This document shows, one piece after another, positions 14,270-40,094 of a DNA stretch of 44,794 bases. The notes under the pieces are model-generated. The model was not told the DNA's origin. It saw only the letters and a program-made list of their open reading frames with translations, and did not search any database. How positions within the stretch are numbered: position 1 is the first letter of the stretch; every line of letters starts with the position of its first letter. Origin of the DNA: an uncultured Phycisphaera sp. (GTDB taxonomy: Bacteria; Planctomycetota; Phycisphaerae; Phycisphaerales; SM1A02); NCBI GenBank assembly GCA_937919685.1, contig CALFOM010000135.1, positions 1 to 44,794 of the forward strand. The letters are read 5' to 3'. A program made the position numbers and the translations under genes.

Positions 14270-14303
14270 GCGTCACTCCGGGTCTGGATGAGCCGATGCT
14301 GAT

Positions 14304-22972: not shown

Positions 22973-25156
22973 CTATGCCGCGCCAGACGCCTTCGCCGCT
23001 TCGAGCTCTGCGACGCCGGGTACCGGCCGCCCCGCAAAGCCGCACAGGGCCACGAACGCCGGATCGACCACCGTCTTTCGACCGATCTGCAGCAGTTCAT
23101 GACCCGCGAATTCCGCGAGCAACGATTCGGCCCATGCCTCCCGCTGCCGGCCCGTCTTCACTGACCGCCCCCAATCACGGACCGTGCCAGCGAATCGCTG
23201 GGACATTCTCTTGACCGTCGTCCGTTCCGGCGAGTCAAGATAGACGACCGCTGCGGCCCGGCACTCCTCGAGAAAGACGTCGCCGCCGAGATCCTTCCAA
23301 CACCTCGCCAGCAGCCTGGCGTCCTCGCACCCTTGTCGATCAAGCGCTTCGAGCAGTCGTTCGTTTTCCCGCGGCGTCGAAGGCGAAGGAAGCGCGAGCA
23401 TTCTTGCATGGGCGAGCGCTCGGACCGTCCGACGATAGAGGTCAAATTCCTCTGCCGCATAGGGTTCGAAGCCAGCTTCGAAGGTATCGAGCACTTCGAC
23501 TGCAGTCATCGCGTCGGGCGCCGCCGCGATGGCCGCATCGACCAGGGGCATTGCGAAGGGGTTCAGGTCCATCGTCGCCTTCATGAGTCGAACGCACTGA
23601 CGAGCACGTGGCGCCGCCTCGAGATCATCCCACGCCCGGCGAAGCACCATCGCGTCGACGAAAGCCTCGGCATCGTGATTCACCGCCCACGCCACGGACT
23701 GATGGAACACCATCGGACGTCGCCCGCCGACATCGTCGTAGTTCCAGCCCGCGTGAACGGTGGTTACGTCGTCGCCGCCCGTGGCGTACTGACCGCCTCG
23801 ACAACGGAACCGCCCGGTCGCCGGGTCCTGCTCCATCACCACGATCGCGCAGTGACCGGGCTGGCCCGCGGTCGACGCAGGAACCCCGCAGATCCGATGC
23901 GTCCGCGCCCCAATGTTCCCCATGGTGCCGCAGACCCCACCGTCCTTCCACATCATCTGGATCGATCCATAGCTGAAGGAGAACGGCCCCACCCGGCGAG
24001 CCGACTGCATGTCGAACTGCTGGGCGATGCCGCCGATGTACTCGCCATACGTCCTGAACTCTCCTTGGTCGCGATATCTGCTCCAGATCTCTTCACGCTC
24101 CCGCAGCGGCTGGTCGTCAGCCACGAGCATCATCAGAATCGGCCACGGCGCTTCGAGTGGGAATCGCGGCCAGACCCGGTCTGTACCCGAAAAATCGTGG
24201 CGGTCGTTGCGGATGAACCATGCCATCGATTCACTCGCGGTCGGTGCCGCGTCCCGCTCTTGAGGCATCCGCCCCTTGGCGCGATACGCGTCGTGGAAGA
24301 GATCGTGCGCTGCTTTGATGGAGGCCCGGACATCCTTGTCCTTCACCGCCTCGGTCGACTTCCGATGCACCACGCCGTCGCCGCACCGGATTTGGATCTC
24401 GGGATGACCGTTCGCGACCATGGAGGCGTTGAACTCATCTTGCAGTTTGGCGGAAGCAATGACGTCGGCGCCGACGAGCCCGCGGCTGACCATCTTCCTG
24501 ACCTTGACCGCCTTCCCGCGAGGCTTCGCCACACCTTGATCGTCGTATTCGAGCGGCGGAAATTCCTCGGCCTCGACTTCCACCTCGACCCAGGGATGAT
24601 CCTCAAGAAAGTTGATGACGTGATCGAGCGCGTCGAGATCCCGCGTCGCATCCTTGGTATCCACGGGGACCCGCGGATCGCCAGGACATGCAAGCATCAA
24701 AGGGGGTCGCGGAGAGACGTCAGGGAGATCGTCACCAAGAGTCCCGCGGTCTCCGTCGTTCCATCCGGATGCTTTGCCGCCTGGCGGCGCGTAGGAACCG
24801 GTGATCGCAAACGCGATCGCGAGTTGGGGATAGTCTTGGCGAACCGTCTCGGCGCCGAGATCGATCTCCAGCGACCGGAGTCCGAGCAACACCGGCAGTG
24901 GATCTTCTCGACACCCGTAGACGGAAGCCTTCAGCCTCGGATCCCCGTCGATCCATGCGAGAAAGTCGGGCGGGAGTTCGATGCCGCGTTCGTGACACGC
25001 CGCAAGCGTCCGCTTCCGCGCATCGACGATGTGCAGGGCAGCCATTCGATCGAAGGCGTCGATCGCGGCGATGGCGACTCGGTCCACGGCCAGAAGCATG
25101 GTGACAATGACGAAGAGGACACGCAGCTGTCCCGAAGAGCCAAGGTAACGCGACAT
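22973..25156 (-). CDS. Large secreted protein with a transglutaminase-like Cys/His core
   Basis: The 727-residue product starts at ATG 25156 with GGAG eight bases upstream and has a signal peptide or anchor (VLFVIVTMLLAVDRVAIA). Most of it matches nothing I recognise. Residues of about 400-440 contain WKDGGVCGTMGNIGARTHRI followed by GVPASTAGQPGHCAIV. This has the look of a transglutaminase-like / papain-fold active site: a Cys (409) at the start of a helix, then 'alGiPa', then a His (435) before a beta strand. A following GWNYDD could supply the Asp. The last 200 residues are mainly helical. It might process cell-surface peptide bonds, but activity is inference. It converges on the CPBP gene and is not obviously in an operon. 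Confidence 0.6.
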   Translation of the reverse strand: MSRYLGSSGQLRVLFVIVTMLLAVDRVAIAAIDAFDRMAALHIVDARKRTLAACHERGIELPPDFLAWIDGDPRLKASVYGCREDPLPVLLGLRSLEIDLGAETVRQDYPQLAIAFAITGSYAPPGGKASGWNDGDRGTLGDDLPDVSPRPPLMLACPGDPRVPVDTKDATRDLDALDHVINFLEDHPWVEVEVEAEEFPPLEYDDQGVAKPRGKAVKVRKMVSRGLVGADVIASAKLQDEFNASMVANGHPEIQIRCGDGVVHRKSTEAVKDKDVRASIKAAHDLFHDAYRAKGRMPQERDAAPTASESMAWFIRNDRHDFSGTDRVWPRFPLEAPWPILMMLVADDQPLREREEIWSRYRDQGEFRTYGEYIGGIAQQFDMQSARRVGPFSFSYGSIQMMWKDGGVCGTMGNIGARTHRICGVPASTAGQPGHCAIVVMEQDPATGRFRCRGGQYATGGDDVTTVHAGWNYDDVGGRRPMVFHQSVAWAVNHDAEAFVDAMVLRRAWDDLEAAPRARQCVRLMKATMDLNPFAMPLVDAAIAAAPDAMTAVEVLDTFEAGFEPYAAEEFDLYRRTVRALAHARMLALPSPSTPRENERLLEALDRQGCEDARLLARCWKDLGGDVFLEECRAAAVVYLDSPERTTVKRMSQRFAGTVRDWGRSVKTGRQREAWAESLLAEFAGHELLQIGRKTVVDPAFVALCGFAGRPVPGVAELEAAKASGAA

Positions 25157-25283
25157 GGAATGCTCCAGCGATGAGAACGGATCCGTGCGACAAGCCAATC
25201 TTCGGTCCTTCGACTCGAACCCATGAACAAGTCTGCCACAGATCTAGGCCGTAGGCCAGCCTGAATCGTCCAACCCGCCGGAA

Positions 25284-26678
25284 TCAGAGAAGGGACTCGC
25301 GGATCACTACTCCGGGAGCACGCTGGAGCATCCCGAACAAGCCACGGACCGCGGCACCCCGCCCGCGGCCGATCTCGATCAGCGACGATCGAAACGCCTC
25401 GACGATCCAGTCGACATCCTCGTTGGAGATCAAGAGGGGCGGAACGACTTTGATCACACCGCTTCCCTTGCTCGTCGACTGCGTGAGCAATCGATGTTCA
25501 GTCAACAAACGCATCACCAGAGCCTGCGCCACGAGCGTCGGTGTCCGTCGGGCAAGGCCCGGCATGTCGATCGAGAGCGCCGACGGATCAATCTCGATGC
25601 CGATCATGAGACCGCGGCCGCGCACCTCGCGGATCCCGGGTACTTCGGCGGCCACGCGTCGCAGCCCACGAATCAGGGCGTCGCCGGTCTCTGCCGCACG
25701 CTCGACCAGACGCTCCTCACGAAGGACGTGGAGCACCGCCAGACCAGTGGTCATCGCCAAGGGATTCTCACGGAAGGTCGAACTGTGAACCACTGAACGT
25801 TCCACCGAATCAAACACCCGGTCGAAGATCGGCGCCCGCCCAAGGATCGCGCCGACCGGGACGCTACCCGCCGACAGCCCCTTGGAGAGACAGACGATGT
25901 CCGCTTCGACACCATCCACCCTGCTCGCGAGCGCCGCTCCGGCTCGGCCAAGTCCGGTCTGCACCTCGTCGGCGACGAGAAGCGTTCCGGTGTCACGGCA
26001 GATCTCGGCAACTTCCTTGAGCACCCCCGGCGGATGAGGAATCACACCCTTGCCCTGGATCGGCTCGAAGAAGAACGCCGCCACGGATTCATCGCCGAGC
26101 GCGTCTCGAAGGCGGTCGAGATCGCAGAACGGAACTTCTCGACATCCGGGGATCAGTGGTTCGAATCCTCGCCGCAGCCAGTCTGCGCCATTGAGCGATA
26201 GAGCGCCGAGCGTGAGCCCGTGAAACGCGTTCGACCAATATGCGAAGCCAGGCCGACCCGTCGCGGCGCGGGCGATCTTCATCGCGGCCTCGACCGATTC
26301 TGCACCACTGTTGACGAAGAAGACCCGGTCGTGCGGCCGATCGACGAATCGCTTCAAGGACTCGGCCAGCGCGACTGCAAGCGGCGGAGTCTCGAACTGC
26401 ACCAAGGCCGGGGGCGCGATCCGAAGGGCCTGCTCGAGCGCATCGCGGACCACGGGATGGTCGCGTCCGAGGGAAAGGCTCGCGAAGCCGCCGATCGCGT
26501 CGAGGTAACGATTCCCCTCCTCGTCGAAGAGATACGGTCCTTCGCCGCGGACGAAACGCTTTTCGAAACCGACCAGACGAAGCAGATCGTGGAAGCGTGG
26601 GTTCAGATGTCGTGCGTAGGCGGGGCCGGAATCTGGGCCGAACGAATCAATAATCGCCTGCAAGTCGAATGACGCCAT
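25284..26678 (-). CDS. Class III (ornithine/putrescine-type) PLP-dependent aminotransferase
   Basis: The 464-residue product has all fold-type I class III landmarks: GPYLFDEEGNRYLDAIGG, FFVNSGAESVEAAMKIAR (phosphate-binding loop), FHGLT, LLVADEVQTGLGR (PLP-ring Asp, about D237) and CLSKGLSAG with the Schiff-base Lys (about K266). STFRENPLA follows as expected. The family transfers an amino group, usually from a terminal amine such as ornithine, putrescine or GABA, to a keto acid. Substrate cannot be set from motifs alone. It lies between the transglutaminase-like gene and an unknown secreted protein. It is about 1 kb from the aryl-polyene-like cluster but separated by another gene, so I do not count it in. 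Confidence 0.92.
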   Translation of the reverse strand: MASFDLQAIIDSFGPDSGPAYARHLNPRFHDLLRLVGFEKRFVRGEGPYLFDEEGNRYLDAIGGFASLSLGRDHPVVRDALEQALRIAPPALVQFETPPLAVALAESLKRFVDRPHDRVFFVNSGAESVEAAMKIARAATGRPGFAYWSNAFHGLTLGALSLNGADWLRRGFEPLIPGCREVPFCDLDRLRDALGDESVAAFFFEPIQGKGVIPHPPGVLKEVAEICRDTGTLLVADEVQTGLGRAGAALASRVDGVEADIVCLSKGLSAGSVPVGAILGRAPIFDRVFDSVERSVVHSSTFRENPLAMTTGLAVLHVLREERLVERAAETGDALIRGLRRVAAEVPGIREVRGRGLMIGIEIDPSALSIDMPGLARRTPTLVAQALVMRLLTEHRLLTQSTSKGSGVIKVVPPLLISNEDVDWIVEAFRSSLIEIGRGRGAAVRGLFGMLQRAPGVVIRESLL

Positions 26679-27518: not shown

Positions 27519-27692
27519 CACTTCATGTTAGCGGTTCTCGGCAAAATCTTGCACTCGGGGACGGACCTCAAGACAAAATCAGAACTCCGGGCGTTCCCGG
27601 CGTAAGATCCGGCCTTGGCGCCGACAGGTTCGGCCTCGAAAGTCTTGCCCTCACCGCTGCACGTGCGGACCTCGGAGCCTCGCGGACCACGC

Positions 27693-28826
27693 ATGACGAA
27701 AGCGGATCACATGGCGACGGACGAAAGTCCCGCGGACGGCACGCTGAGCATCGCGGTGCTCATTCCGACCTACAACAACCGGTCGACCCTCGACTCTGTG
27801 CTTCGCGGCGCCGCCGAATCGGGGCTCCCGGTGGTGGTAATCGACGATGCCAGCACCGATGGCAGCCAGATCGTGCTCGAAGAACTAGAGACCGAAGGCA
27901 TCGTGCATCGACGGTTCCGAGCTCCCCGGAACCTTGGCAAAGCCGGCGCCCTCCGCGCGGGCTTTGAACTCTGCCGACAGAGTGGCTTCACGCATGCCAT
28001 CACTTGCGATTCGGACGCACAACATGACACCGATCTGATCCCACTGTTCGCCGAAGCGGCCCGTGCCGACGCCGGTTCGTATCTCTTGGGATGCCGTTTT
28101 CCACTTCATCCCGACCAACCTCGCCGCAATCTCCTCGGCCGAATCTTGAGCAACGTGGCCATCCGCGCGCATTCCGGCGTGACCATCGGCGATGCCGCCT
28201 GCGGATTCCGATGCTGGCCGCTGGAACTTCCCGCGACGGTGCGCGGGCTTTCCGGTCGGTATGCGTGGGAGGAAGAGATGATTACCAGAGCAGCTTGGGC
28301 CGGCTGGCCGATCACTTCGATTGACGTCCCCGCGATCTACCATCCGCCCTCAACCCGGGTGAGTCACTATCGCTTCGGAAGAGACTGGTCCGAAGGCATC
28401 GGCATTTACCTTCTTCTCCTTCTTGAAGCAACGCTTCCGCGGTTCCCCCGATCTGGGGGCGGGCGGCGCCCGTTCCGGGACGGGTTTCTGCGGCGTTGCG
28501 ACCGGCTTCTCTCACCCGGCGCCCTTCGAGGCCGGCGGCCGGAAGCCGCGACGGAACGCTGGTTCCAGCTCATCGCCCTCGCAGCGGGCGGACTCACCGC
28601 CACCATCGCCCCCCCGTCGATGGTGACGCTCGCCGCGATCGGCTGGATCGGCTGGCGATGGCATGCTGGCTTCGCCGCCATGGCGATCGCCGCATTTCCC
28701 ACCCTGCTCGAACTGGAGGCGTTCGACGGCAAGGCGGAATGGATCGTTCTGGTCGCCGTCGCCAGCCTGCTCGCGGGCTTGATCCGAAGATCCGCGTCGC
28801 TGCGCAGTCTTGCACCAGAAGGCTGA
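27693..28826 (+). CDS. Family 2 glycosyltransferase with C-terminal membrane segments
   Basis: The 377-residue protein carries a GT-A domain of the dolichol-phosphate-mannose-synthase type: AVLIPTYNN, VVIDDASTDGS (nucleotide binding), CDSDAQHD (DxD metal site) and RYAWEEEMITRAAWAG (acceptor/catalytic acid region). The C-terminal 90 residues contain two or three hydrophobic segments. It would move a sugar from an activated donor to a lipid or lipid-linked product at the cytoplasmic membrane. GT2 enzymes are regular members of aryl-polyene clusters, and this gene converges with a 2-bp gap on the aryl-AMP ligase of the cluster, so it may glycosylate that product. Start ATG 27693 is uncertain; ATG 27711 is an alternative. 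Confidence 0.85.
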   Translation: MTKADHMATDESPADGTLSIAVLIPTYNNRSTLDSVLRGAAESGLPVVVIDDASTDGSQIVLEELETEGIVHRRFRAPRNLGKAGALRAGFELCRQSGFTHAITCDSDAQHDTDLIPLFAEAARADAGSYLLGCRFPLHPDQPRRNLLGRILSNVAIRAHSGVTIGDAACGFRCWPLELPATVRGLSGRYAWEEEMITRAAWAGWPITSIDVPAIYHPPSTRVSHYRFGRDWSEGIGIYLLLLLEATLPRFPRSGGGRRPFRDGFLRRCDRLLSPGALRGRRPEAATERWFQLIALAAGGLTATIAPPSMVTLAAIGWIGWRWHAGFAAMAIAAFPTLLELEAFDGKAEWIVLVAVASLLAGLIRRSASLRSLAPEG

Positions 28827-28828
28827 AT

Positions 28829-30313
28829 TCAGATGTCGGCGGATCGGCCGACCAATTCGATCAGTCGGCCCCGGAGGAGTTTTCCGGTCAGGGTGCGCGG
28901 CAACGAATCCACGAAGTCGATGACCCTCGGTCGCTGATGTGGCGCGAGGTCACGGGCCGCGAGGGCTCCGAGTTCACGGCGAATCAAAGACTCTCGTTCC
29001 GGATCGCCCGAGCAATCCACCACCACGACCGCACGAACCCTGGTCACCGTCGCGGTCAGCGGTAGCGGGATGACCGCCACTTCTCGGATCGCCGGATGCG
29101 CCGCGAGTACCTCTTCGACCTCGGTGGGATTCACCTTCAAACCGCCGACATCGAACTGTATCTTGGCCCTTCCGGTGATCTCGACCCGCCCCTCCGCATG
29201 CACCCGTCCGAGATCGCCGGTACGGAAGTGCCCTTCGAGACGTCGCCCGGGATCGACCTCAGCATCTCGAGCCGCCAGATAGCCTGCGAACATCGCATCG
29301 CTTCGCACCACGAGTTCGCCCGAACCCTCGGCGGTCACCACGGGCACCTCTCCACCATCCTCATCGACTACGGCCGCCACTCGAATCGAGACACCGGCGA
29401 CCGCCGCATCCAAGCCGCCGATTCCGTAGGTGATCGTCCCGAGCTCCGTGGCCCCATAGAGATTGCCGGTGGGACAACCCCACGCTTCGGCGAACGCCTC
29501 TCGAACCACTTCTGGAAGCGAGCTTCCTGCGGAATAGGCCAGTCGAAGCCTCGAATCCAGCCGCCCTTCTCGCGCTGCGGCTTCGAGCGTCACTGGAACA
29601 CCGGGAAACACGGTCACGCCATTGGCCAGCGCCTCGACGCCTCCTGCCAGATCAAATCCCGGGCGAAAGCGGACTGAAGCCCCAGCCCGCATCGGCGCCA
29701 GCACGCCGTGCTCGATGCCGTACGCGTGCTGCATCGGAAGCGTCGCGAGCACCTCGTCGTCATCGACCAGTTCGATGACCCGCAACAAGGTCTCCGAAAC
29801 TCGGTCCAGCGCGGCTCCCGTCCGCAAGGCCACCGCCGGCCGACCGGTCGTTCCCGAACTCCGCAAGAGCAGGGAACCGCTTGAGCCTCGGGCAAGCACC
29901 CCGGCGTCGTTTCCACGCGGGATACCAATGCCGTCCATCACCTGAAGATGAACCGTCGCCGGCGACTCCGCCCATCCCACCGACGCATCCGTCTCGATGA
30001 CCGCGTCGACTCGATGAGCATCATGAAGCGTCGCACGATCCCGCGCGGTGGTCTCGATGCCGATGGGAAGCATCCGCCTTCCCGAACCGAGAATCGCGAG
30101 CAACCCCGCCCAGTAGCCCGCACCACTCGGCCCATGGAGCATCACCACGCCATCTTCGGGGACGGTGGCGTCGAGCCGCCGGGCGGCCTGGGCCGCCGCC
30201 GCGAGAATCTCGCCACGGCTGGTCTTCCGTCCCGACGTGAGATCGTGAACCGCCACCCGATCGGGATCGCGATCCACCGATGCGATGAAATCTCGGATCA
30301 GCTCGGCTGCCAC
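28829..30313 (-). CDS. Aryl-AMP ligase, probably hydroxybenzoate:ACP ligase
   Basis: The 494-residue protein is an ANL-superfamily adenylating enzyme: LLRSSGTTGRPA (P-loop-like A3), YGATELGTI (A5), FRTGDLG (A7), GRAKIQFDVGGLKVNPTEVE (A8) and RTLTGKLLR with the catalytic Lys (A10). Its length fits stand-alone acid:ACP ligases. Next to a chorismatase and an ACP, it most likely activates 3- or 4-hydroxybenzoate and loads it on the ACP as starter unit, as in xanthomonadin and aryl-polyene pathways. The track starts 148 codons upstream within the FAD gene. The best start is GTG 30313 (VAAELIRDF), overlapping the FAD gene's stop by 16 bp. It is the last gene of the minus-strand series and converges on the GT2 gene. 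Confidence 0.88.
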   Translation of the reverse strand: MAAELIRDFIASVDRDPDRVAVHDLTSGRKTSRGEILAAAAQAARRLDATVPEDGVVMLHGPSGAGYWAGLLAILGSGRRMLPIGIETTARDRATLHDAHRVDAVIETDASVGWAESPATVHLQVMDGIGIPRGNDAGVLARGSSGSLLLRSSGTTGRPAVALRTGAALDRVSETLLRVIELVDDDEVLATLPMQHAYGIEHGVLAPMRAGASVRFRPGFDLAGGVEALANGVTVFPGVPVTLEAAAREGRLDSRLRLAYSAGSSLPEVVREAFAEAWGCPTGNLYGATELGTITYGIGGLDAAVAGVSIRVAAVVDEDGGEVPVVTAEGSGELVVRSDAMFAGYLAARDAEVDPGRRLEGHFRTGDLGRVHAEGRVEITGRAKIQFDVGGLKVNPTEVEEVLAAHPAIREVAVIPLPLTATVTRVRAVVVVDCSGDPERESLIRRELGALAARDLAPHQRPRVIDFVDSLPRTLTGKLLRGRLIELVGRSADI

Positions 30314-31686
30314 GAAGGCCGCCCGCGATGCCGTCTCTTGATGCCGCGAACCACGCCGGATTGCGGCGAAGGCAGCGTGATACCACCGGACTGCAGCAGG
30401 GAGTGTGGACGGATCCACTCCACGACCTTCCGGTGCCGGTTCGCCTCCTTGAGCCACCGCATGAGTTCCCATCGCCAGCGGACTCGAAACGGGACGCCTT
30501 CGAAGATCTCCCCGGCGAGCATGTTGACCACCGCCGCATCGATTTCGAGCCGGCCTTGGCCGCTCACCAGAAGCTCCCGAAACGAATGATCGTAGAAGTT
30601 TGAGATGAGCGATAGAAAGCTCGAACGCAGTCGCTTGACGCGCTTTCCGTACGCCTTCGATGCGGCGGACGCCGCCATCCGGCCCGCATCTACGTCGATG
30701 ATCCGTTGCGCCGATTGCATGCCCCCGTCGATTCCCAGACTCACGCCGGTTGACCAAACGGGGTCAATAAAGGCCGCGGCATCTCCGACCAAGAACCAAC
30801 CGTCACCGGCGTAGGGCTCGCAGGTGTAGGAGAAGTCACCCGTGACTTGATTCGTCTTGGGTCCGACCGCATCGCGGAGCCGATGCTTGACCAACGGGCA
30901 GTTCTCGATGCACCATTCCAGTCTTTGGTTCGCAGGCACCGGAATAAGTCTCGCCAGCTTGTCATCAAGGACCACACCCACACTGGTCGTCTTCTCGTCA
31001 ATGGGAATCATCCAGAACCAACCTTCGCGGCACATCGCAAGCGTGGCGAAGCCTTGCCGATCACCGCTCGGTCGATCGACGCCTTCGAAGTGCTCGAAGT
31101 ACGAAACGTTTTGATATCCCTCAAGGAGCTTTCGGGTACCAAAATGCCGACCCAAGACACAAGCCTGACCGCTGGCATCGATCAGCCAGTTGGCCTGAAT
31201 CGGCCCGGATTCGAGCTGCAAGCGGACGTCACCCCGAGCTAGATGATCTATGGAAACCACGGATTCGCCGAATCGATAGGTGGCACCTGCCTCCATCGCA
31301 ACGTCTGCGAGCATCTGATCAAAGAGCGATCGCCGGACGTTGAAGGTCTCCTTGATGGTGTCGCCAAGCATCCGGTCAAACGGAATCGCCGCGGGGTCGC
31401 GACGGCCGTCCCCAAATGAGATTTCCAAACCCAACTTGACCACATGGGGAAGTTCGCGGACTCGATCCATGAGCCCGAGTCTCTCCATCACTCGATTGGT
31501 GTGGGGGAGCATCGATTCGCCGATTCGGAATCGCGGAAAGGTCTCCTTGTCGATCACCAGGACTTTCTTGCCCGCACGAGCCAGTTCGAGCGCCGCAATG
31601 CTCCCGGACGGCCCTGCGCCGATGACCACGACGTCCCAGACGTCCAAGGACTCTCCCGATGCAATCGCTTCAGAGTGGGCAATCAT
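30298..31686 (-). CDS. FAD-dependent oxidoreductase of the tryptophan-halogenase family
   Basis: The 462-residue protein begins with the FAD-binding VIGAGPSGSIAALELARAG (GAGPSG at 23-28). It then shows FPRFRIGESMLPHTN, shared by flavin halogenases and related enzymes, and WFWMIP at 223-228, which fits the WxWxIP motif diagnostic of flavin-dependent halogenases. A second FAD contact, FLVGDAAAFIDPVWSTGV, follows. Xanthomonadins are brominated aryl polyenes, so halogenation of the arene head group is an attractive role, though some family members hydroxylate or reduce. No flavin reductase gene is adjacent. ATG 31686 overlaps the chorismatase stop as ATGA; the 56-codon track extension is out-of-frame chorismatase sequence. 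Family placement is firm; halogenase activity is inferred. Confidence 0.85.
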   Translation of the reverse strand: MIAHSEAIASGESLDVWDVVVIGAGPSGSIAALELARAGKKVLVIDKETFPRFRIGESMLPHTNRVMERLGLMDRVRELPHVVKLGLEISFGDGRRDPAAIPFDRMLGDTIKETFNVRRSLFDQMLADVAMEAGATYRFGESVVSIDHLARGDVRLQLESGPIQANWLIDASGQACVLGRHFGTRKLLEGYQNVSYFEHFEGVDRPSGDRQGFATLAMCREGWFWMIPIDEKTTSVGVVLDDKLARLIPVPANQRLEWCIENCPLVKHRLRDAVGPKTNQVTGDFSYTCEPYAGDGWFLVGDAAAFIDPVWSTGVSLGIDGGMQSAQRIIDVDAGRMAASAASKAYGKRVKRLRSSFLSLISNFYDHSFRELLVSGQGRLEIDAAVVNMLAGEIFEGVPFRVRWRWELMRWLKEANRHRKVVEWIRPHSLLQSGGITLPSPQSGVVRGIKRRHRGRPSWQPS

Positions 31687-32669
31687 GCGTCGCGCTCCGC
31701 GGCGAGCCCGGCACCTTCGATCTCGACCAGCAGTTCCGGCCGGCAGAGTTTCTGAACTCTGAATTCGATCTCGACCTGATGACCCGGCCACCGACGTTCG
31801 ACCGCCGCCAGAACTTTTCCACGCTGCGTGGCATCCAGAAGGTAGACCAGCCAATGATCAAGATGGACCGGGGTGAATCCCGCCCGGCATGCATCGACCA
31901 CCATCGCCAGATTGTCGAGCGTCTCCTCGAGTTGGCGATCGAAGTCCTCGACATGCGCCGAGTCTTCTCCGACCACGCTCGCGGTGCCACTCACCAGGAT
32001 GTACTCACCGGCGTCCGACTGAATCGTCGCGGCACGAACGAACGCGGGCGGAAGGTCCCCGAACTTCTCGGAGTAGTCGACGGGAAGCACCTGCCGAGGA
32101 TTGTCGACCGGGCGAGGCAAGCCATCGCCGTGGAGAAGATGGAGAACCAGATCGTCGCCGGCGTGACCGACGCCTGAAGCCACCGGAAACCATTCGGGGC
32201 GTTCATACACCTCCTGAAACGACTGAAATCGCCCGGCATTGAACGCCATGTACCGGTTTCGGGGAACGGCGGCCTCCAGATCATCTTCCACGGCATCATT
32301 GATGCGAGGCACGTAGTTCCAGATGCGAAGAAGGTGACCGTGCGGAATGCCAAGCAGCAGCCGGCGGTACGCCTGATGAGTCGCCCGCTCGAAATCCTGT
32401 CCCTGCATCAAGCATGCCGCGGGTACCACGACCGTCCGAATCGTCCAGTCTCCGGACTTTCGTTCGAAAGCGCGGATCCCGGACTCGCATTCGAGGGCCA
32501 GATCAACCGCATCATCTCCGATGAACACGCTCGTCCAGGCCGGCAGATCTGCGGCCGATCCATCGGCGGCCCAGTGCTTCGACAGATCGAAATCTCCCTC
32601 CAAGACACGTTCGCCAGTGGAGGAAAGCTTTTTTCCCTGCTGCATGTTTTCGCGGACACTCAAACTCAT
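31683..32669 (-). CDS. Chorismatase (FkbO/Hyg5/XanB2 family), hydroxybenzoate-forming
   Basis: The 328-residue protein shows the segments I associate with chorismatases: HLLRIWNYVPRIND (about 112-125), RYMAFNAGR (139-147) and SGTASVVGEDS (227-237), ending in a region with RPELLVEIEG typical of the YjgF/RutC-like fold. The family hydrolyses chorismate: FkbO gives a dihydroxycyclohexadiene acid, Hyg5 gives 3-hydroxybenzoate, and XanB2 gives 3- and 4-hydroxybenzoate for xanthomonadin and coenzyme Q. In this cluster it most plausibly supplies the aromatic starter for the adjacent ligase. Which product forms depends on active-site residues I cannot resolve by eye. The start ATG is 14 bp after the KS-CLF stop. 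It overlaps the next gene by ATGA. Confidence 0.87.
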   Translation of the reverse strand: MSLSVRENMQQGKKLSSTGERVLEGDFDLSKHWAADGSAADLPAWTSVFIGDDAVDLALECESGIRAFERKSGDWTIRTVVVPAACLMQGQDFERATHQAYRRLLLGIPHGHLLRIWNYVPRINDAVEDDLEAAVPRNRYMAFNAGRFQSFQEVYERPEWFPVASGVGHAGDDLVLHLLHGDGLPRPVDNPRQVLPVDYSEKFGDLPPAFVRAATIQSDAGEYILVSGTASVVGEDSAHVEDFDRQLEETLDNLAMVVDACRAGFTPVHLDHWLVYLLDATQRGKVLAAVERRWPGHQVEIEFRVQKLCRPELLVEIEGAGLAAERDA

Positions 32670-32683
32670 GGTTCAGATGATAC

Positions 32684-34918
32684 TCACCGGATCTCAAGAG
32701 AACCCGCACCACCGGCCGAATCCGGCCATGCGATCACGGATGCCTCGCCCGCCCGGATCGCATCGGCGGCGGCGAGCATTGGCCCGACCGAACCACGCTC
32801 CACTCCTGCGGCGGATGGGCAAGGCCTCGCTCCCGCTCTCGAAAATCGTCGTCTCCGCATCGCCAGATCGAACACCCGACCAGCAAGACTCTCGGCGGGC
32901 GGTCCCACCACCGGCTGTTTCGGAACTCCCGGAATTGCTCTAGCCAGTGCCTCGACGCTTGCCAGAGTTCCTCCCGACGCCGGCCAGATCACCGCGGAAC
33001 CGGCGAAGACGCCTCGAGCCGAACCGCCTCGATCGCGAAGCGAAGACGCCCGCTCGAGCACGAATGCCACCGCTCCCTCCGCACTCGGATGCTCGCAACC
33101 ATGTCCGAGGTCATGGAGGATCTTCCGAATCATCGGATGCGTCTCTTCTGCCGCCACCACCACGGCCCGTTCTGACTGCCCGGTCTGAAGGTGCCGCCGT
33201 GCGAGATGCATGGCCTCGATACCCGCGATCACGGTCCCACCGACGGAAATCGTGAGCCCTTCGAGGCCGAGCCCCAGGCTCAACTGCGCGCTCCCGATGT
33301 TCGGCACGCTCTCCGCGAAGTAAAGGGGGTTCCCAGCGCCCAAACCGTCGCGAATCAACTCCTGATAGAAGTCGAGCGTGTACTCCGGCGCCCCGAATCT
33401 CGTCCCGACGAATCCCGCACAGTCCCTGATCTCCTGGTCATCAAGTCCGGCGTCTCGCACCGCGAGGATCCCGGCCGCTCTAACCAAACGCGAAAAACGG
33501 GCGAGGCGACGCACCGCCCGTGGGTCATCGAGGCCTTCCAACGCGTCGTCGTCGAGACCGATTTCACCAGGTCGAATCGGCACTGCGTCGGCTGGGGGGA
33601 CAAGTACTCCGCAGCCGGAGATCAGAACCACTTCTCTTTCCGTCGACGAGATTCTGGCCTCGCGACCAGGGAAATGCGGGGTGATTGGATGCGGTGATTC
33701 CGCGGCCTCCACCAAAATTGCAGCGTCGGCACCGCCGAATCCCAGCGAAACAACCGCGGCTCGCTCCACGATCCCGATTCGAAAACCGTCATCCAGAAGA
33801 TCCAGATTCGGGAAGGAAGCACGGTCGGTTTCCGCATTCGCCGCGGCGGGTATCTGCGACTGCTCCATCGCCGCAACGATCACCGCGAGCTCCACCGCTC
33901 CGGCGGCACCCAGGGTGTGTCCGATGCGACTCTTCAGCGCGGTCACCGGAATGTTCGAGAGATCGTCGCCGAACGCGACCGACAACGCGGCATACTCGGC
34001 GGCATCGTTTGCCGGCGTTGATGTCGCGTGAGCCGCGATGAGATCGGGAAGCGACCGCGAGGGCTCCAGCGCGCGAGTCGCCTCGCGAATCGCTCGAGCG
34101 GCACCTCGCCCATCGGGGGCGGGCTGGGTCAGATGATGCGCATCGCTTGCTCCACCCCAACCAAGGATGCGGGCGACGGGTCGTGCTCCACGAGCCTTCG
34201 CATCAGCCGCTCGTTCGACGATGAACACGCCATAGCCCTCACCTAATCGCATGCCGGTTCGATCCGCGGTGAACGGACGAAGGGGACCCTCGCTCACCAG
34301 CCGAAGACAGGTAAAACCGGCGAACGCAAACTCACTGATCGGGTCGTACGACACCGCCAGCAGGAGATCCGCCTCATCGGCCAGGATCGCCGTCGCCGCA
34401 ATCGCCAGCGTGCTGACCCCGGAGGCGCAGGCCGCAGAGATTGTCGAACCGCCAAGTGGGAGACCCGTCTCGGATAACACGGAGCGGGTAAGGGTCGCGG
34501 TGGTGGCCTTCGACAGCTCCTCGAGCCGCCCGGTGCGGAGACCCTCTCCAAGATGCCTCATCCCTCCGAGGGTCGTCCCGAAGACCGTCTCGAACCGCCT
34601 TCCTTCGGATTGCATCCGTTCAATCGTCGGGCGATCAAGATTGGCCTCTGCCAGCGCCTGACGGATGGAGCGGCTCAAGAGCCTCTCGGCCCGATCCGGG
34701 ACGGCCCCAACCTCAGGCTGGATTTCGGCGACCTGTGCTGCCCTGATCTTCGCGGCGGGCGTTCCCGGCGACTCCGCCAGGAAGACGCCCTCGATCGCTG
34801 GCGCATCATCGATGGCGGTCCGACCTTCGAGCATGGACGCGAGAATTTCGGATCGATGCTCGCCGAGTGAACAACTTGCCGCCGCGGCCGTGAGCACCAG
34901 GCCATCCTCCGACCTCAC
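32684..34918 (-). CDS. Single-chain ketosynthase-chain length factor (KS-CLF) fusion
   Basis: The 744-residue protein is twice the usual KS length. Residues 1-405 form a complete FabF-type ketosynthase with the Cys-His-His site: SAACASG (C164), HATSTPAND (H297) and ALKSRIGHTLGAAG (K329, H334). Residues of about 425-744 are a second thiolase-fold domain (VVLISGCGVL, GFVGTRFGAPEYTLDFYQ) in which the nucleophile region reads SVGGTVIAG, so the Cys is replaced by Gly. This is the hallmark of a chain-length-factor-like or inactive partner. In aryl-polyene and type II polyketide systems KS and CLF are normally separate genes forming a heterodimer; here they are fused in one uninterrupted frame. It probably extends the hydroxybenzoyl-ACP starter. 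The GTG start overlaps the dehydratase stop as GTGA. Confidence 0.9.
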   Translation of the reverse strand: MRSEDGLVLTAAAASCSLGEHRSEILASMLEGRTAIDDAPAIEGVFLAESPGTPAAKIRAAQVAEIQPEVGAVPDRAERLLSRSIRQALAEANLDRPTIERMQSEGRRFETVFGTTLGGMRHLGEGLRTGRLEELSKATTATLTRSVLSETGLPLGGSTISAACASGVSTLAIAATAILADEADLLLAVSYDPISEFAFAGFTCLRLVSEGPLRPFTADRTGMRLGEGYGVFIVERAADAKARGARPVARILGWGGASDAHHLTQPAPDGRGAARAIREATRALEPSRSLPDLIAAHATSTPANDAAEYAALSVAFGDDLSNIPVTALKSRIGHTLGAAGAVELAVIVAAMEQSQIPAAANAETDRASFPNLDLLDDGFRIGIVERAAVVSLGFGGADAAILVEAAESPHPITPHFPGREARISSTEREVVLISGCGVLVPPADAVPIRPGEIGLDDDALEGLDDPRAVRRLARFSRLVRAAGILAVRDAGLDDQEIRDCAGFVGTRFGAPEYTLDFYQELIRDGLGAGNPLYFAESVPNIGSAQLSLGLGLEGLTISVGGTVIAGIEAMHLARRHLQTGQSERAVVVAAEETHPMIRKILHDLGHGCEHPSAEGAVAFVLERASSLRDRGGSARGVFAGSAVIWPASGGTLASVEALARAIPGVPKQPVVGPPAESLAGRVFDLAMRRRRFSRAGARPCPSAAGVERGSVGPMLAAADAIRAGEASVIAWPDSAGGAGSLEIR

Positions 34919-35367
34919 GATGCCTCATCCTCGCCGCCGGACCGCAGGCTCACCCCCACCGAGCCGCTCGCGACCCGGACCCCGTCGACCAATGCGTCGA
35001 AATCGAACCGATGGATCGAATCGAACTGCCCCATAGACGTCACTTCAAGCATGATGGTCGCCGGCGGTTTGACGGGACGTCGGAACCTCGCGTCACTCAG
35101 TACGAGCATGCCGTCTCCGTTGCCCCCCACTCGGCGGTGTGCGACCACGCCCGCGAGTTGCGCCGCCGCCTCGGTGATCAGGACCCCGGGAACCAGCGGG
35201 CGGCCCGGAAAATGCCCCCGAAGAAAGTCCTCGTCGCCACGCACGACCCACGCACCGCGGGCCGCGTCGTCGCTCAGCGCGTCGATTCGATCAAGGAATC
35301 GGAACGGTGGTTCGTGCGGCAGATTCCGTAATGCCGACGCGAACGGATCGTTGACCGCCTCGGTCAC
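34915..35367 (-). CDS. FabZ-like 3-hydroxyacyl-ACP dehydratase (hotdog fold)
   Basis: The 150-residue protein has the FabZ core: LRGHFPGRPLVPGVLITEAAAQLAG, with the catalytic His in GHFPG (H52) and Glu in TEAAAQ (E66). The N-terminal ALRNLPHEPPFRFLDRI also fits. It removes water from 3-hydroxyacyl-ACP to give the trans-2-enoyl chain, the step that creates each double bond of a polyene. Dedicated dehydratases of this fold are part of aryl-polyene clusters. A housekeeping FabZ would be expected elsewhere. The GTG start overlaps the ACP stop as GTGA, implying coupled translation. No ketoreductase that would make its substrate is seen nearby. Confidence 0.92.
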   Translation of the reverse strand: MTEAVNDPFASALRNLPHEPPFRFLDRIDALSDDAARGAWVVRGDEDFLRGHFPGRPLVPGVLITEAAAQLAGVVAHRRVGGNGDGMLVLSDARFRRPVKPPATIMLEVTSMGQFDSIHRFDFDALVDGVRVASGSVGVSLRSGGEDEAS

Positions 35368-35627
35368 GCGTCGGTCCGGATCGATTCGACGAACCGAACG
35401 AAGTCACCGATGGTGCTCATGGTGTCTTTGCCGAGCTTCTCGTTAGGGATCTTGATTCCTAGCCTTTTCTCAGTACCCGTGACCACCATGAGAAGATCCA
35501 GCGAGTCGAGACCCAGTTCGTCACCGACCAACGGCGTATCCGGACCGAGTTGGATCATCCCAAGCTTCAAATCCGTCCGGAGAACTTCACAGACAACTTC
35601 CTGGAGATCCGCGGTGTCATTGCTCAT
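35364..35627 (-). CDS. Acyl carrier protein
   Basis: The 87-residue protein has the phosphopantetheine site GLDSLDLL (S42) in a four-helix ACP pattern with acidic surroundings. It would carry the aryl starter and growing chain for the KS-CLF and dehydratase encoded next. I chose ATG 35627 (MSNDTADL) because GGAGG lies five bases upstream; the track's start adds 18 residues with no support. It is the first gene after the 164-bp gap from the ABC permease gene, downstream of a candidate promoter. Aryl-polyene clusters commonly have two ACP genes; only one is here. Confidence 0.95.
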   Translation of the reverse strand: MSNDTADLQEVVCEVLRTDLKLGMIQLGPDTPLVGDELGLDSLDLLMVVTGTEKRLGIKIPNEKLGKDTMSTIGDFVRFVESIRTDA

Positions 35628-35684
35628 TTCTGCCTCCATGACGGCGTGCGTGCCGCCTTCTTGATCTGCTCGACCGAGCATGGT

Positions 35685-35791: not shown

Positions 35792-37066
35792 TCAATGCCA
35801 GCGTGATATCGCCACTCGAGCGCCGACCAGACAGACCACGGTGGTCCCGAAGATCAGGGCGAGCGCCGGACTGATCCGGCCAAGCATCGCGCCCAGAGTG
35901 TCGTCCGACGAGGTGTACCAGAGTACCTGTTGCATGGCCTTGATGGCACGGGCGTTGAAGGCCCAATCTCCGATCGCCTGCAGTCCCGGTGGCATCAGGA
36001 AGATTGGAATCATGCTCCCGCCGACGGCGCTCAGAATCAGCACCGTGATGGTCCCGATGGTGGTCTGCTGCCTTCGAGTCTTCGCGATGCCGGTGATGAG
36101 CAGCCCGAGGCCGGCGGCTGCGGCGGCGACCATCGGCACGAGGATCAAGAGCGCGATCACCTGACGGAAGGAGAAGAACCGGACGCCGAAGACGATCGCC
36201 GCCCAGGCCAGCATCACCGCGATCTGAACCGATCCGACCATGATGGCGAACACAAAGCGATTGAGGAGAACCGCCCAGGGACCGATTCCCGAGGCTCGCA
36301 TGCGATCAAGCACCCCACGTTCCTGATCTTCGAGCAACCATCCCGTGGTCGACAAGGCGCTGAAGAGCATGAACATCACGCCAATCGCCGCGGTGTAATA
36401 GGTGACGAGGCTCGGCCCCCCCTGTCCGACGGTGACCGGGCTCCCCTCGATCGGCACCTGAGTCGAATCGGCGAGGCGGGCGATCATTGGGGACACCTTT
36501 GAATCCGAACCAGACTGGAACGATTGAAGGGAATCCGCGAGCTTCCGCTGCGGGGCCGTGAGTTGGCCGGTGATCATCTCCAGCACACGGATCTCGCGGC
36601 CCAGCATCTGAGGGGCCAGGCCCTTCCAGGTCGCGGCTGCCAGCACGCCTTTCGCGAAATCCGGGGCGATCGGGTTCGCGGGATCGAATCGCACCAGCAG
36701 CGGCGGAATCTCCGCCGTCGGATCGGCCAGCGCCGCCCCGAATCCCAACGGAATGATCACCGCCGCAGGAAAAGCGCCGCTGGCGACCTGGCGATCCGCC
36801 GCGGCGACGTCTGCGCCTTCGATCATCTCGAGGTTGACCCGGTTGCTCGATTCTTTCACCGCCGCCTCGAGCGCCTTGGATGCCGGACTTCGGTCGAGAT
36901 CCAGCAGGGCGATGCGAACTTGGTTGTCACCGTTGCGACCGAACCCCTGGAAGACGCTCGCGAAGATCGAGAGGAAAATGATCGGCACCATCGCGTAAAG
37001 AAGTAGGCCGAGCCGATCTCGGTGCAGCGTGATCCACGCGATCCGGAGCAATGCGAGACGCCTCAT
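35792..37066 (-). CDS. ABC-2 type transporter permease
   Basis: The 424-residue protein has one N-terminal membrane segment (LLLYAMVPIIFLSIFASVF), a soluble periplasmic domain of about 150 residues, and five C-terminal segments, including TYYTAAIGVMFMLFSALSTT and LLEDQERGVLDRMRASGI between them. This is the YhhJ/YbhR-type ABC-2 membrane protein. With the ABC ATPase four genes upstream it would export a hydrophobic or lipid-linked product across the inner membrane. The start ATG overlaps the acyltransferase stop as ATGA. The rest of the polyene core genes follow after 164 bp. The transported substrate is inferred only from context. Confidence 0.92.
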   Translation of the reverse strand: MRRLALLRIAWITLHRDRLGLLLYAMVPIIFLSIFASVFQGFGRNGDNQVRIALLDLDRSPASKALEAAVKESSNRVNLEMIEGADVAAADRQVASGAFPAAVIIPLGFGAALADPTAEIPPLLVRFDPANPIAPDFAKGVLAAATWKGLAPQMLGREIRVLEMITGQLTAPQRKLADSLQSFQSGSDSKVSPMIARLADSTQVPIEGSPVTVGQGGPSLVTYYTAAIGVMFMLFSALSTTGWLLEDQERGVLDRMRASGIGPWAVLLNRFVFAIMVGSVQIAVMLAWAAIVFGVRFFSFRQVIALLILVPMVAAAAAGLGLLITGIAKTRRQQTTIGTITVLILSAVGGSMIPIFLMPPGLQAIGDWAFNARAIKAMQQVLWYTSSDDTLGAMLGRISPALALIFGTTVVCLVGARVAISRWH

Positions 37067-38004
37067 GCCGCGCTCCGATCATCACCAGCGCCCGCTATCG
37101 CGGATTCTCCACCCCGCCAGACGGGATGCACGTTGAGCCACTGCTCCGGCGTGGCGCGGATTCTTGCCTCGACAAGTTCCACCCAGCGCCGCATCGCGGG
37201 GTTCGATCCCGGGTCGCGGCGAAGGTCTCCCTCCACCTCGATGGGCGCCTCCATCCGCATGGCGAGCCTTCCATCGGGTAACCACCAGTTGAAGACTGGA
37301 ATCAGCCTGCTCCCCGTGGCCTGAGCCAACTTGAACGGTCCGACCGGAATCTCCATGTGCCGCCCGAACATGGGCATGAAGGTTCCAGTCTGGCCTGGCT
37401 GAACTCGATCGCCGAGCAGCGCAACGACCTCGCCCCGATCCAGCACATCCCGGAGTCTCATCCACGCGGCCAGCCCGTCGTCGACCGCATGGCCAGTGAC
37501 CCCGAGCAGACCTCGGGCGCGAGCCCGGATCGTCTCCAACGTCTTGATTCGATCTCGGCGATAGAGCACGTGCACCGGCGCGTGGCGACTCATGAAAGCC
37601 GCCGCGGGTTCGAATTCGCCCATGTGAATGGAGAGGAGGATCAGGCCACGCCGCTTCCGGTCCTGGAAGTACTCGCGGAAGTCGGTGAGGCCCTCCACCG
37701 TGTCGATGCGCTTCAACAACGTCTCGGGATTCAGTTGCGAGGCGACCACCAGGCCTTCCATATATCGCTGCATGTATTCAAGCACCCCGAGACCATAGGC
37801 CTCAAGGCGACCCTCGTCAGCCTCTCGCCCCAGAATGATCCGGCCGTTCTCCCGAAGCGCCTCCCGCCAGAATGGTGCGCGACGCCAGGTCTGCCGCACC
37901 ATCAGCGGTCTGATTCGATGCATGAAACCTGGAACTCGAGCGTACCCATGGAGCAACGAGGAGACCGCCAGTCGTTCGGCTTTCGAGACGCCTGCGTCGT
38001 TCAT
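37063..38004 (-). CDS. LpxL/HtrB-like lipid acyltransferase
   Basis: The 313-residue protein belongs to the LpxL/LpxM/HtrB (lauroyl transferase) family. It has the HX4E catalytic motif in HMGEFE (127-132), then VLYRRDRIKTLETIRARARG, a segment LGDRVQPGQTGTFMPMFGR corresponding to the family DQ-x-G-F region, and FNWWLPDGRLAM. These enzymes transfer acyl chains at the cytoplasmic face of the inner membrane. Aryl-polyene clusters regularly encode such acyltransferases, thought to attach the polyene to a lipid. The track's 58-residue extension lies in the previous gene out of frame; ATG 38004 overlaps that gene's stop as ATGA. Confidence 0.88.
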   Translation of the reverse strand: MNDAGVSKAERLAVSSLLHGYARVPGFMHRIRPLMVRQTWRRAPFWREALRENGRIILGREADEGRLEAYGLGVLEYMQRYMEGLVVASQLNPETLLKRIDTVEGLTDFREYFQDRKRRGLILLSIHMGEFEPAAAFMSRHAPVHVLYRRDRIKTLETIRARARGLLGVTGHAVDDGLAAWMRLRDVLDRGEVVALLGDRVQPGQTGTFMPMFGRHMEIPVGPFKLAQATGSRLIPVFNWWLPDGRLAMRMEAPIEVEGDLRRDPGSNPAMRRWVELVEARIRATPEQWLNVHPVWRGGESAIAGAGDDRSAA

Positions 38005-38756
38005 CCCACATGCTCCACAGACATTTTCTCGGCCACGCAAACCTCGCCCGTTGAAGGCGACGTCGACAATTCCTCGATCGCAACCGCGAGCCGCCTGGTG
38101 AAGGCCGTCGCCGTTTCGTCGAGAGCTGCCCTCATGGGATCCCCTGCGATTATCCGCAGCGTCGTGGCCCGGGGCCACCAGACTCCACGGGGCAGGATGT
38201 ACTCGGTCCCTTCGATTCGGACTGGTATCACCGGCAAGTCGTTCCGCCGAGCAAGCTCCGCGGCCCCATGCCGAAAGCGGCCCGGTCGGCCATCACGACT
38301 CCGAGTCGCTTCCGGAAAGATCACCAAGCTCCATCCGGCGGCGATCATCGCATCGATCCGATCGAGTTCGGAGTACTCACCGCCGACGCGATCGATCAGC
38401 ATGACGTTCATGGCGCTTCGGATGAACCAGATCACGCCCCTGCGGAAGAGCCGTTCGAACCAAGGCTGGCCGGATTCGGCCTTGAAGAAGTCGAGGCCAC
38501 CGACCGTCGCCGTCCGATTCCGACGACTCGCCGGTATCGACATGAACAAGCAAGGCGTATCGATGAGGCTGTGGTGATTGGCAACCACGATCGATTGCGG
38601 CATCTCCTCGATGCACTCAAATCCCGACCGTCGAATCGGAACCCTGCAGACGAACCGGCCGGCGAGGTGAAGAAATGACAACACGCTTCGAGCCACCACC
38701 CGCGAAAGGAGTGGCATCGGGATGCGAAACTCGGCGATGGCCTGGGATGCCGTCAT
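38001..38756 (-). CDS. PlsC-like 1-acylglycerol-3-phosphate acyltransferase family protein
   Basis: The 251-residue protein shows the lysophospholipid acyltransferase motifs: NHHSLID (HX4D, H61-D66), a substrate loop, and FPEATRSRDGRPGRF (147-161; the FPEGTRS-like motif with Ala in place of Gly). It would acylate a glycerol- or sugar-type acceptor in the membrane. In the cluster it may help anchor the polyene; a general phospholipid role is the alternative. ATG 38756 has GAGG upstream and overlaps the DUF2141 stop as ATGA. The track extension of 18 residues lacks support. Confidence 0.88.
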   Translation of the reverse strand: MTASQAIAEFRIPMPLLSRVVARSVLSFLHLAGRFVCRVPIRRSGFECIEEMPQSIVVANHHSLIDTPCLFMSIPASRRNRTATVGGLDFFKAESGQPWFERLFRRGVIWFIRSAMNVMLIDRVGGEYSELDRIDAMIAAGWSLVIFPEATRSRDGRPGRFRHGAAELARRNDLPVIPVRIEGTEYILPRGVWWPRATTLRIIAGDPMRAALDETATAFTRRLAVAIEELSTSPSTGEVCVAEKMSVEHVG

Positions 38757-39367
38757 CGTCCGCCCTCGGCATGGGTCTTGTCGGACATCGCGATCTGGAT
38801 CTGGCCACAATTTTCGTCGGGTACCGAGCCCTCGCTCCGACTCGAAAGCTTCCGAATCTTGATGGAGGTCGTCGTCGAGGGCAGGACGAGTTCGATCGCA
38901 GCATCATCGAACCGCGGGGGGCCGAAGAGCACGGTGGCGTTGTTGGAGAATCCGTAGGGTTCGCTCGGAATGCCGAAGGCCCCTCGACCGAGATCGTCGT
39001 TCTCATCGACATCGATGAAGACCGAGATGGCGGTTGGTCGCGCGGGCAGACCTTCGAACTCAACGATCGTCAGCGGCGGAGTGACCGAGACAGACCTCGC
39101 CGCGGCCCATCCCGTCGCTTTGAGCCAGCCATCCCGCGACTGGACGACCGCGATCTTCATCTGCTTGCCTGCATCGTTCGGAGTCAGGATCTCGATACGC
39201 AGCGTCGTCGTTCCGACGAATTCCGCGTCGGCTTCGTCTGCGGAACTCGCGGCGACCGGTGGAGCCTGACACCCGCCAGCGAAGCAGGACGCCGCGACTA
39301 CCACCGCAAATGGCGCTGAAACCACGAACCGGCGTCGACTTGAACGCGCCGAAAGCTTGGTTCGCAA
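38753..39367 (-). CDS. DUF2141 family lipoprotein
   Basis: The 204-residue protein has an N-terminal export signal (RRRFVVSAPFAVVVAASCFAGG then Cys-Gln) that is close to a lipobox, and the DUF2141 signature YGFSNNATVLFGPPRFDDAA. The family is periplasmic, has a beta-sandwich fold and unknown function. I chose a TTG start at 39367. It is one base after the methyltransferase stop, has GGAG four bases upstream inside that gene's end, and puts the signal peptide at the N-terminus. The track's ATG at 39433 would overlap the methyltransferase by 65 bp and bury the signal 35 residues in. A role in handling the exported product is speculative. Confidence 0.8.
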   Translation of the reverse strand: MRTKLSARSSRRRFVVSAPFAVVVAASCFAGGCQAPPVAASSADEADAEFVGTTTLRIEILTPNDAGKQMKIAVVQSRDGWLKATGWAAARSVSVTPPLTIVEFEGLPARPTAISVFIDVDENDDLGRGAFGIPSEPYGFSNNATVLFGPPRFDDAAIELVLPSTTTSIKIRKLSSRSEGSVPDENCGQIQIAMSDKTHAEGGR

Positions 39368-39368
39368 T

Positions 39369-40094
39369 TCACTCCACGGGGACTTGGGCACGAAATTCTC
39401 CAAGCAGGCCACCGACGTATCGATATCTGACATCGATGAATCCGGAATTCTCGAGCAACTCGACCACGAGTTCCGGCGAGTCGAAAGAGGATATCGAGTC
39501 CCAAAAATGCCGCATCAGATCACCGGCGGCCCGGGAGCCGCAGACCAGTGAGAAGAAGCGAGCCCCCAGTCCTTGAACCATGAATCGAAGGATCCGCCGC
39601 TTTGCGGGCGACCGAGGCACCACCATTTCGAGCAGTACCAAACGCCCTCCTGACCGAAGCACGCGGCGAGCCTCGGCGAACGCCTCCGCAAGGTCAACCG
39701 CATATCGAATCGCGTAGCCGCTCACCATGGCATCCATCGAGGCGTCCTCGACGGGAATGGAACCGAACGAGCCTGCGCGGACATCGCGAACCCCGGCTCT
39801 GGAAGCCATCGCCCGCATTTCCGGCGACGGATCGACGGCAACGATCGAAGGTGAATCGGGGAGGTACCGCTGCGCTGCCACCGCCAGCGAACCCGTCCCG
39901 CTCCCCACATCCACCAAGGTCCCGTCGGACGGGAGATCGAGCGAGAGGATGGTCCGGCGGCGATACCAGTTGCTGGTTCCAAAGCTGATCAGGTTGTTGA
40001 GCCGGTCATACCGCTTTGCGGCACGGTCGTAGAGACGCGTGATCTCCGGATCGACGCCAACCGACGATTCCATCACGACCGTGGCGTCCTTCAC
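39369..40094 (-). CDS. UbiE/MenG-like SAM-dependent methyltransferase
   Basis: The 241-residue protein begins with the UbiE-typical segment ITRLYDRAAKRYDRLNNLISFG, followed by SAM motif I LVDVGSGTGSL (60-70), acidic VAVDPSPEM, and FDSPELVVELLENSGF near the end. UbiE/MenG methylates quinone precursors. Here the gene is within a secondary-metabolite-like operon, so methylation of the arene or another intermediate is equally likely; aryl-polyene clusters often include a methyltransferase. The start GTG 40094 overlaps the ABC ATPase stop as GTGA; ATG 40073 (MESSVGV) is an alternative. Its own stop is one base before the DUF2141 start. Confidence 0.85.
   Translation of the reverse strand: MKDATVVMESSVGVDPEITRLYDRAAKRYDRLNNLISFGTSNWYRRRTILSLDLPSDGTLVDVGSGTGSLAVAAQRYLPDSPSIVAVDPSPEMRAMASRAGVRDVRAGSFGSIPVEDASMDAMVSGYAIRYAVDLAEAFAEARRVLRSGGRLVLLEMVVPRSPAKRRILRFMVQGLGARFFSLVCGSRAAGDLMRHFWDSISSFDSPELVVELLENSGFIDVRYRYVGGLLGEFRAQVPVE

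Follow-up and report, generated by a model that had tools for sequence, protein, structure and literature searches.

The stretch of DNA analysed here (44,794 nucleotides, hereafter the window) comes from an uncultured Phycisphaera sp., a planctomycete (contig CALFOM010000135.1), and holds a cluster of genes that probably direct the biosynthesis and export of an aryl polyene. The core of the cluster is formed by six genes, all on the minus strand between positions 28829 and 35681, whose open reading frames (ORFs) are intact and keep their catalytic residues. The first encodes an acyl carrier protein (ACP; 35364 to 35681, with a start maybe at 35627) with a GLDSLD motif and a PP-binding match (PF00550, E 3e-9), which in the relatives also adjoins the gene of a FabZ-like 3-hydroxyacyl-ACP dehydratase (34915 to 35367; GHFPG...PGVLITEA). 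The latter is supported by PF07977 (E 4e-19), by the FabZ model (87 bits) and by FabZ entries in the PDB, and both are ordinary members of their families. Then follow a fused ketosynthase-chain length factor (KS-CLF; 32684 to 34918; ketoacyl-synt, E 3e-29), a chorismatase of the FkbO/Hyg5/XanB2 family (31683 to 32669; PF21168 FkbO_Hyg5-like_N, E 1e-15), a flavin adenine dinucleotide (FAD)-dependent enzyme of halogenase fold (30298 to 31686; PF04820 Trp_halogenase, E 1e-26) and an adenylate-forming ligase (28829 to 30313; PF00501 AMP-binding, E 3e-35, and PF13193). For the FAD enzyme and the ligase, the long ORFs (from 31854 and from 30757, respectively) extend too far upstream, the likeliest start codons being ATG 31686 and GTG 30313. 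Stop and start codons overlap by 4 bases (ATGA or GTGA) between the ACP and dehydratase, the dehydratase and KS, and the chorismatase and FAD genes, and further overlaps of this kind occur at the permease/LpxL, LpxL/PlsC, PlsC/DUF2141 and ATPase/methyltransferase junctions described below, so that a single operon likely runs from about 41059, at an ABC transporter ATPase, to 28829, at the ligase. An initial annotation of this region had recognised the six core families as one coupled series, which is borne out by the Pfam matches and the overlaps; the borders that it drew (28829 to 35627) are too narrow for the conserved unit, as the flanks from 25284 to about 41059 are kept with the core in the relatives (about 25.3 to 41.1 kb).

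The KS-CLF is a single chain of 744 residues, the first half of which conserves the Cys-His-His set of a ketosynthase (AACASG, HATST and GHT). The second half, assigned by CLF alignment, has a thiolase fold with a valine at the Cys position, which is occupied by Ala, Met, Arg or Ser in the relatives. In this way, the type II KS with a CLF partner devoid of the active-site Cys that characterises aryl-polyene systems is present, here fused in one chain. An AlphaFold model obtained from an alignment of only six sequences reached a pTM of 0.85 and a mean pLDDT of 75, and its best fold match, over the whole length, was the KS-CLF didomain of PfaC (6riw, E 1.8e-30). In phylogenies drawn without flexirubin, dialkylresorcinol and ishigamide references, the planctomycete KSs form their own clade (support 100/100), and the ApeO/xanthomonadin clade is closed without them (100/99). 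A housekeeping origin, raised by the initial annotation as an outcome that would refute the aryl-polyene reading, found no backing: a FabF identity of the KS was rejected (approximately unbiased test, p 0.003), and the ligase groups neither with FadD and EntE nor with the other ligases of its own genome. Another locus (L157, G000:C244, 7711 to 10382) carries two adjoining FabF-like genes that lie apart from the fab operon; one of them is placed on a long branch of the KS tree.

The starter unit of the pathway would be supplied by the chorismatase. The protein matches the Hyg5 structure with an E value of 7e-21 and, once aligned with the solved Hyg5 and FkbO enzymes, retains the catalytic Glu as well as the Gly, Gly and Cys that mark benzoate-forming enzymes, a residue set taken from PMC7170507; FkbO carries an Ala at the position of this Cys. 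A tree of 65 proteins, with distant chorismatases from a plasmid collection (Streptomyces, Caballeronia) as outgroups, placed it inside the true chorismatase clade (SH-aLRT 99) together with XanB2-type and Hyg5-type enzymes. Its own branch comprises planctomycete, acidobacterial and myxococcal proteins plus one from a gammaproteobacterial metagenome-assembled genome (MAG), and the neighbouring branch holds proteobacterial and actinobacterial enzymes. The concern that the protein might be some other YjgF-fold member was thus answered by its position in the clade, apart from stand-alone Rid-duplicate proteins, and by its diagnostic residues. From these data, hydroxybenzoate and pyruvate are the expected products. 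As pointed out in PMC3949708, alignment alone does not decide between 3-hydroxybenzoate (3-HBA, as for Hyg5) and 3- and 4-HBA (as for XanB2), and the sequence of the window enzyme cannot tell 3-HBA alone from 3- plus 4-HBA. The stand-alone Rid-duplicate proteins of other planctomycetes (L027, L028, L029, L030, L031 and others) were considered as extra copies of the pathway and discarded, lying outside the clade and without cluster neighbours. The five named ones, of about 390 to 430 residues, show two Rid-like halves with the chorismatase Cys and Glu kept, and that of L030 is embedded in a longer open frame.

The FAD enzyme matches halogenases in the PDB, CndH and CmlS included, with E values from 1e-48 to 1e-42, much better than UbiH-type hydroxylases. 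It keeps the motifs of flavin-dependent halogenases, GAGPSG (GxGxxG), GWFWMIP (WxWxIP) and a Lys in VVKLG, all of them retained in the relatives. This Lys aligns with the Lys of solved halogenases, which we take to be their catalytic one, and a halogenation of the aryl group may be proposed. The ligase would presumably charge the ACP with hydroxybenzoate, and an ACP, a dehydratase and an adenylating ligase with predicted aryl specificity all lie within the cluster, as in aryl-polyene systems. Quick trees (SH-aLRT only) set both the FAD enzyme and the ligase in clades of their own, apart from the proteobacterial pathway enzymes. Together with the separate clade of the KS, this suggests that the planctomycete enzymes are distant cousins of the sampled proteobacterial ones and not recent imports from them. 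The order also has a second family of halogenase-fold FAD enzymes, set in different gene contexts (L210, L211 and L212); in each of them an ABC ATPase match lies no more than a few kb away.

Beyond the core, the conserved unit includes putative genes for lipid attachment and transport. Upstream on the same strand are found an ABC-2 type permease (35792 to 37066; PF12698, E 3e-34), an LpxL-like lipid acyltransferase (37063 to 38004; PF03279, E 2e-22) common to both planctomycete cluster types described below, a PlsC-like acyltransferase (38001 to 38756, start inferred; PF01553, E 1e-16), a DUF2141 protein (38753 to 39367, start codon uncertain; PF09912, E 1e-19) that accompanies the cluster in window-type loci, a UbiE/Coq5-type methyltransferase (39369 to 40094; PF01209, E 8e-22) linked in most of these loci, for which ring O-methylation is possible, and an ABC transporter ATPase (40091 to 41059, start inferred; PF00005, E 5e-28), whose GTGA overlap with the methyltransferase gene was mentioned above and which is the likely partner of the permease. 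On the other side, a family 2 glycosyltransferase (GT2; 27615 to 28826, plus strand; PF00535, E 1e-16), kept in most relatives, is convergent with the ligase, and beyond it sits a class III aminotransferase (25284 to 26678, minus strand; PF00202, E 1e-81). This enzyme is PigE-like, as it scores 394 bits with the PigE model of NCBIfam versus 288 with ArgD-type ones, and 310 bits with the PigE structure (PDB entry 4ppm) versus 234 with putrescine aminotransferase. A reference in PMC9594044 names 4ppm as PigE, and the same work reports that TamH, a related enzyme type, turns fatty aldehydes into amines. As for a reductase to feed the aminotransferase, there is no fused thioester reductase and the genome search gave no AAR-type match; the PF07993 matches in the genome are weak and may correspond to general NAD-binding folds. 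Next to the aminotransferase, a 741-residue protein without Pfam match (22973 to 25198) is syntenic in close relatives.

The cluster is not restricted to this genome. A scan of the whole order detected cluster-type FAD enzymes in 45 of 400 genomes, at E values below 1e-85 and with the following match at 4e-51, and the KS-CLF accompanies them in 23 of the 26 loci of this type that were fetched from the order; FAD-only loci (L192, L196 and L203) indicate that the FAD gene alone is no proof of a cluster. More than 20 other genomes hold the core genes side by side, an arrangement that is therefore more than chance, and most of these loci also keep the dehydratase. The closest named genome is that of 'Planctomycetaceae bacterium isolate CPC83' (L051), with full synteny, and the remaining named relatives are MAGs of Phycisphaerae/Phycisphaerales and of other planctomycetes. 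In genome G356, the chorismatase lies near the KS-CLF, dehydratase, ACP, LpxL and GT2 genes, with the FAD gene about 96 kb away. After removal of duplicates, 26 planctomycete loci with FAD enzyme and KS-CLF were compared, which revealed two architectures: 11 contain an MMPL exporter without aminotransferase (8 of them also LolA), 13 the aminotransferase without MMPL, and 2, both on short contigs, neither of them. The mutual exclusion of both genes is significant by a Fisher test that ignores shared ancestry (p 2e-5). The type with MMPL and LolA resembles the gene set of classical aryl-polyene clusters, whereas the window belongs to the type with aminotransferase and ABC-2 genes in place of LolA and MMPL, an ABC-2 permease being found in 9 of its 13 loci. 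Moreover, a myxococcal locus (L055), in which a chorismatase and a ligase of planctomycete type adjoin an ApeO-type KS and an ApeC-type CLF, bridges by sequence the planctomycete and the ApeO/ApeC-type systems.

Altogether, we consider it probable that the locus is a planctomycete operon for the biosynthesis and export of an aryl polyene of the xanthomonadin/arcuflavin type, akin to the yellow xanthomonadins of Proteobacteria. Gene families, key residues (those of Hyg5 type among them), the KS-CLF fold, linkage and conservation give direct support, and the route from chorismate to an ACP-bound hydroxybenzoyl polyene advanced by the initial annotation stands as a reading of these data, from which we infer the reactions, the polyene length and the product itself. 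The chorismatase would convert chorismate into hydroxybenzoate, which the ligase would adenylate and load on the ACP, and the fused KS-CLF would elongate the resulting hydroxybenzoyl-ACP with malonyl-ACP. A ketoreductase (KR) encoded outside the cluster, probably FabG, would act with the FabZ-like dehydratase to convert every keto group to a double bond, and the aryl head might be halogenated (or hydroxylated) by the FAD enzyme and methylated by the methyltransferase. The LpxL- and PlsC-like acyltransferases and the GT2 would link the polyene to its carrier, a lipid or a sugar, and the ABC-2 transporter would take it towards the outer envelope, where the presumably coloured polyene, with an absorbance expected at about 400 to 470 nm, could serve as an antioxidant pigment. 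More tentatively, and doubtful as a whole, window-type clusters might produce a new class of aryl polyene, a lipid with nitrogen as an amine or amide and perhaps with halogen. Its synthesis would combine the fused KS-CLF with a KR borrowed from fatty acid synthesis, and ABC-2 genes would have replaced LolA and MMPL when the PigE-like aminotransferase joined.

Membership in the aryl-polyene family in the strict sense is nevertheless incomplete, and several results weigh against it. The planctomycete KSs fall outside the ApeO group, their sister position to it reaching a support of 63/68 only, the ligase falls outside the ApeH group, and the chorismatase scores 118 bits with TIGR04444, far below the cut-off of 325. 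No SDR (short-chain dehydrogenase/reductase) ketoreductase rose above noise in the window or, over as much as 20 kb per locus, in the planctomycete loci tested, and none was seen in the stretch of L055 searched, whereas all seven proteobacterial and Nitrospira loci tested have one; a weak match to the SDR model in L061 (E 6e-4) was discounted. As the Lysobacter KR mutant is white, the enzyme being needed for pigment (PMC3691225), a KR acting in trans must be assumed for the planctomycetes. The window cluster also lacks a second dehydratase, a thioesterase, MMPL and LolA. For LolA, the whole genome gave no Pfam match; for MMPL it gave matches, all outside this cluster, those at 11192 to 13558 of the window being an RND pump. 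This efflux pump gene and an adjoining membrane-fusion-like gene (11108 to 15638) are unrelated to the cluster.

These gaps could be read differently, with the locus making a lipid started by hydroxybenzoate on a type II polyketide synthase and no polyene pigment, that is, a short, partly reduced aryl-ketide or aryl-alkyl chain formed in few rounds of KS-CLF and dehydratase, the missing KR being the mark of another product. The separate clades of the KS and ligase and the PigE-like aminotransferase added in the window type would agree with it. However, the dehydratase kept in most loci needs a 3-hydroxy substrate and therefore a KR somewhere, for which FabG in the fab operon and other SDR matches in the genome are at hand, and the sister planctomycete type keeps LolA and MMPL as aryl polyenes do, so we regard this reading as improbable. 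A pathway to a quinone-like redox cofactor, in which the chorismatase, the UbiE-family methyltransferase and the FAD enzyme would act together beside an unrelated lipid synthesis by KS, dehydratase and ACP, appears very unlikely: methyltransferase and FAD enzyme do share the operon, but the latter fits halogenases far better than UbiH-type hydroxylases, the ACP, dehydratase and KS-CLF genes adjoin and travel with the chorismatase, and the methyltransferase is not constant among related loci. A non-functional cluster, decayed or mis-binned in this draft genome of 254 contigs, is hardly credible, given the intact core ORFs with their catalytic residues, the FAD gene in 6 of 7 other genomes of the same genus sampled and the synteny in L051, L184, L185 and L188.

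The aryl-polyene reading thus extends a xanthomonadin-type route to another phylum, in many genomes and with its own enzyme clades, and the pathway would therefore be of greater age, or shared more widely, than one would judge from Proteobacteria. The two planctomycete architectures, sisters with a common core and different export genes, one of them with an aminotransferase, make the step of envelope attachment and export testable. Moreover, a split version seems to be present in a cultured representative of the order, and therefore work on the pigment is feasible. The initial annotation had seen a planctomycete as a new setting, which holds in part: the literature searched contained no experimental work that describes an aryl polyene from planctomycetes, but antiSMASH counts already gave an arylpolyene gene in Phycisphaera mikurensis (PMC8882080), and one arylpolyene entry figures in a table of planctomycete genomes (PMC11588811). 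At the edges of the window, the contig starts with a repeat-like stretch (1 to 939) that would be translated as SIGSIGSIAS from the minus and MDPMDAMD from the plus strand, and ends with a fusion protein of tetratricopeptide repeats and sulfotransferase (43292 to 44791).

Among known systems, the arcuflavin clusters of Azoarcus hold a chorismatase, halogenase, AMP ligase, dehydratase, glycosyltransferase, acyltransferases, methyltransferase, LolA and exporter (PMC3949708). With those of Azoarcus sp. BH72, which are characterised, the window shares the XanB2-type chorismatase, a halogenase-like gene, AMP ligase, dehydratase, glycosyltransferase, phospholipid-type acyltransferases and methyltransferase; it differs in the fused KS-CLF, in lacking KR, LolA and MMPL, and in its aminotransferase, DUF2141 and ABC-2 genes, and no dialkylresorcinol genes were recognised among the genes scanned. 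The xanthomonadin clusters of Xanthomonas and Lysobacter (PMC3691225) have in common with it the chorismatase starter, ACP, dehydratase, KS with a CLF-like partner and a DPM-like glycosyltransferase, plus a halogenase in Xanthomonas, but their KS and half-length CLF are separate genes, a KR is present and needed in the cluster, and so is a LolA-type carrier. The aryl polyene of E. coli CFT073 (PMC8253772; L044) follows the same type II logic, with a ligase loading the ACP, KS and CLF, dehydratase, acyltransferase, glycosyltransferase and methyltransferase, although it takes 4-HBA from UbiC, has a KR, two dehydratases, MMPL, LolA, DUF3261 and thioesterase, lacks chorismatase and halogenase, and its KS and ligase belong to other clades. 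The aminotransferase domains of PigE and TamH, from prodigiosin and tambjamine synthesis, are the best sequence match of the window aminotransferase, which is without their fused thioester reductase. Finally, the PfaC didomain (6riw) belongs to a polyunsaturated fatty acid synthase and is only 15% identical, yet it joins KS and CLF in one chain like the window protein. With its fused KS-CLF, its own enzyme clades, a KR presumably located outside the cluster and, in the window type, an aminotransferase plus ABC-2 genes instead of LolA and MMPL, the planctomycete system is distinct from the known aryl-polyene clusters.

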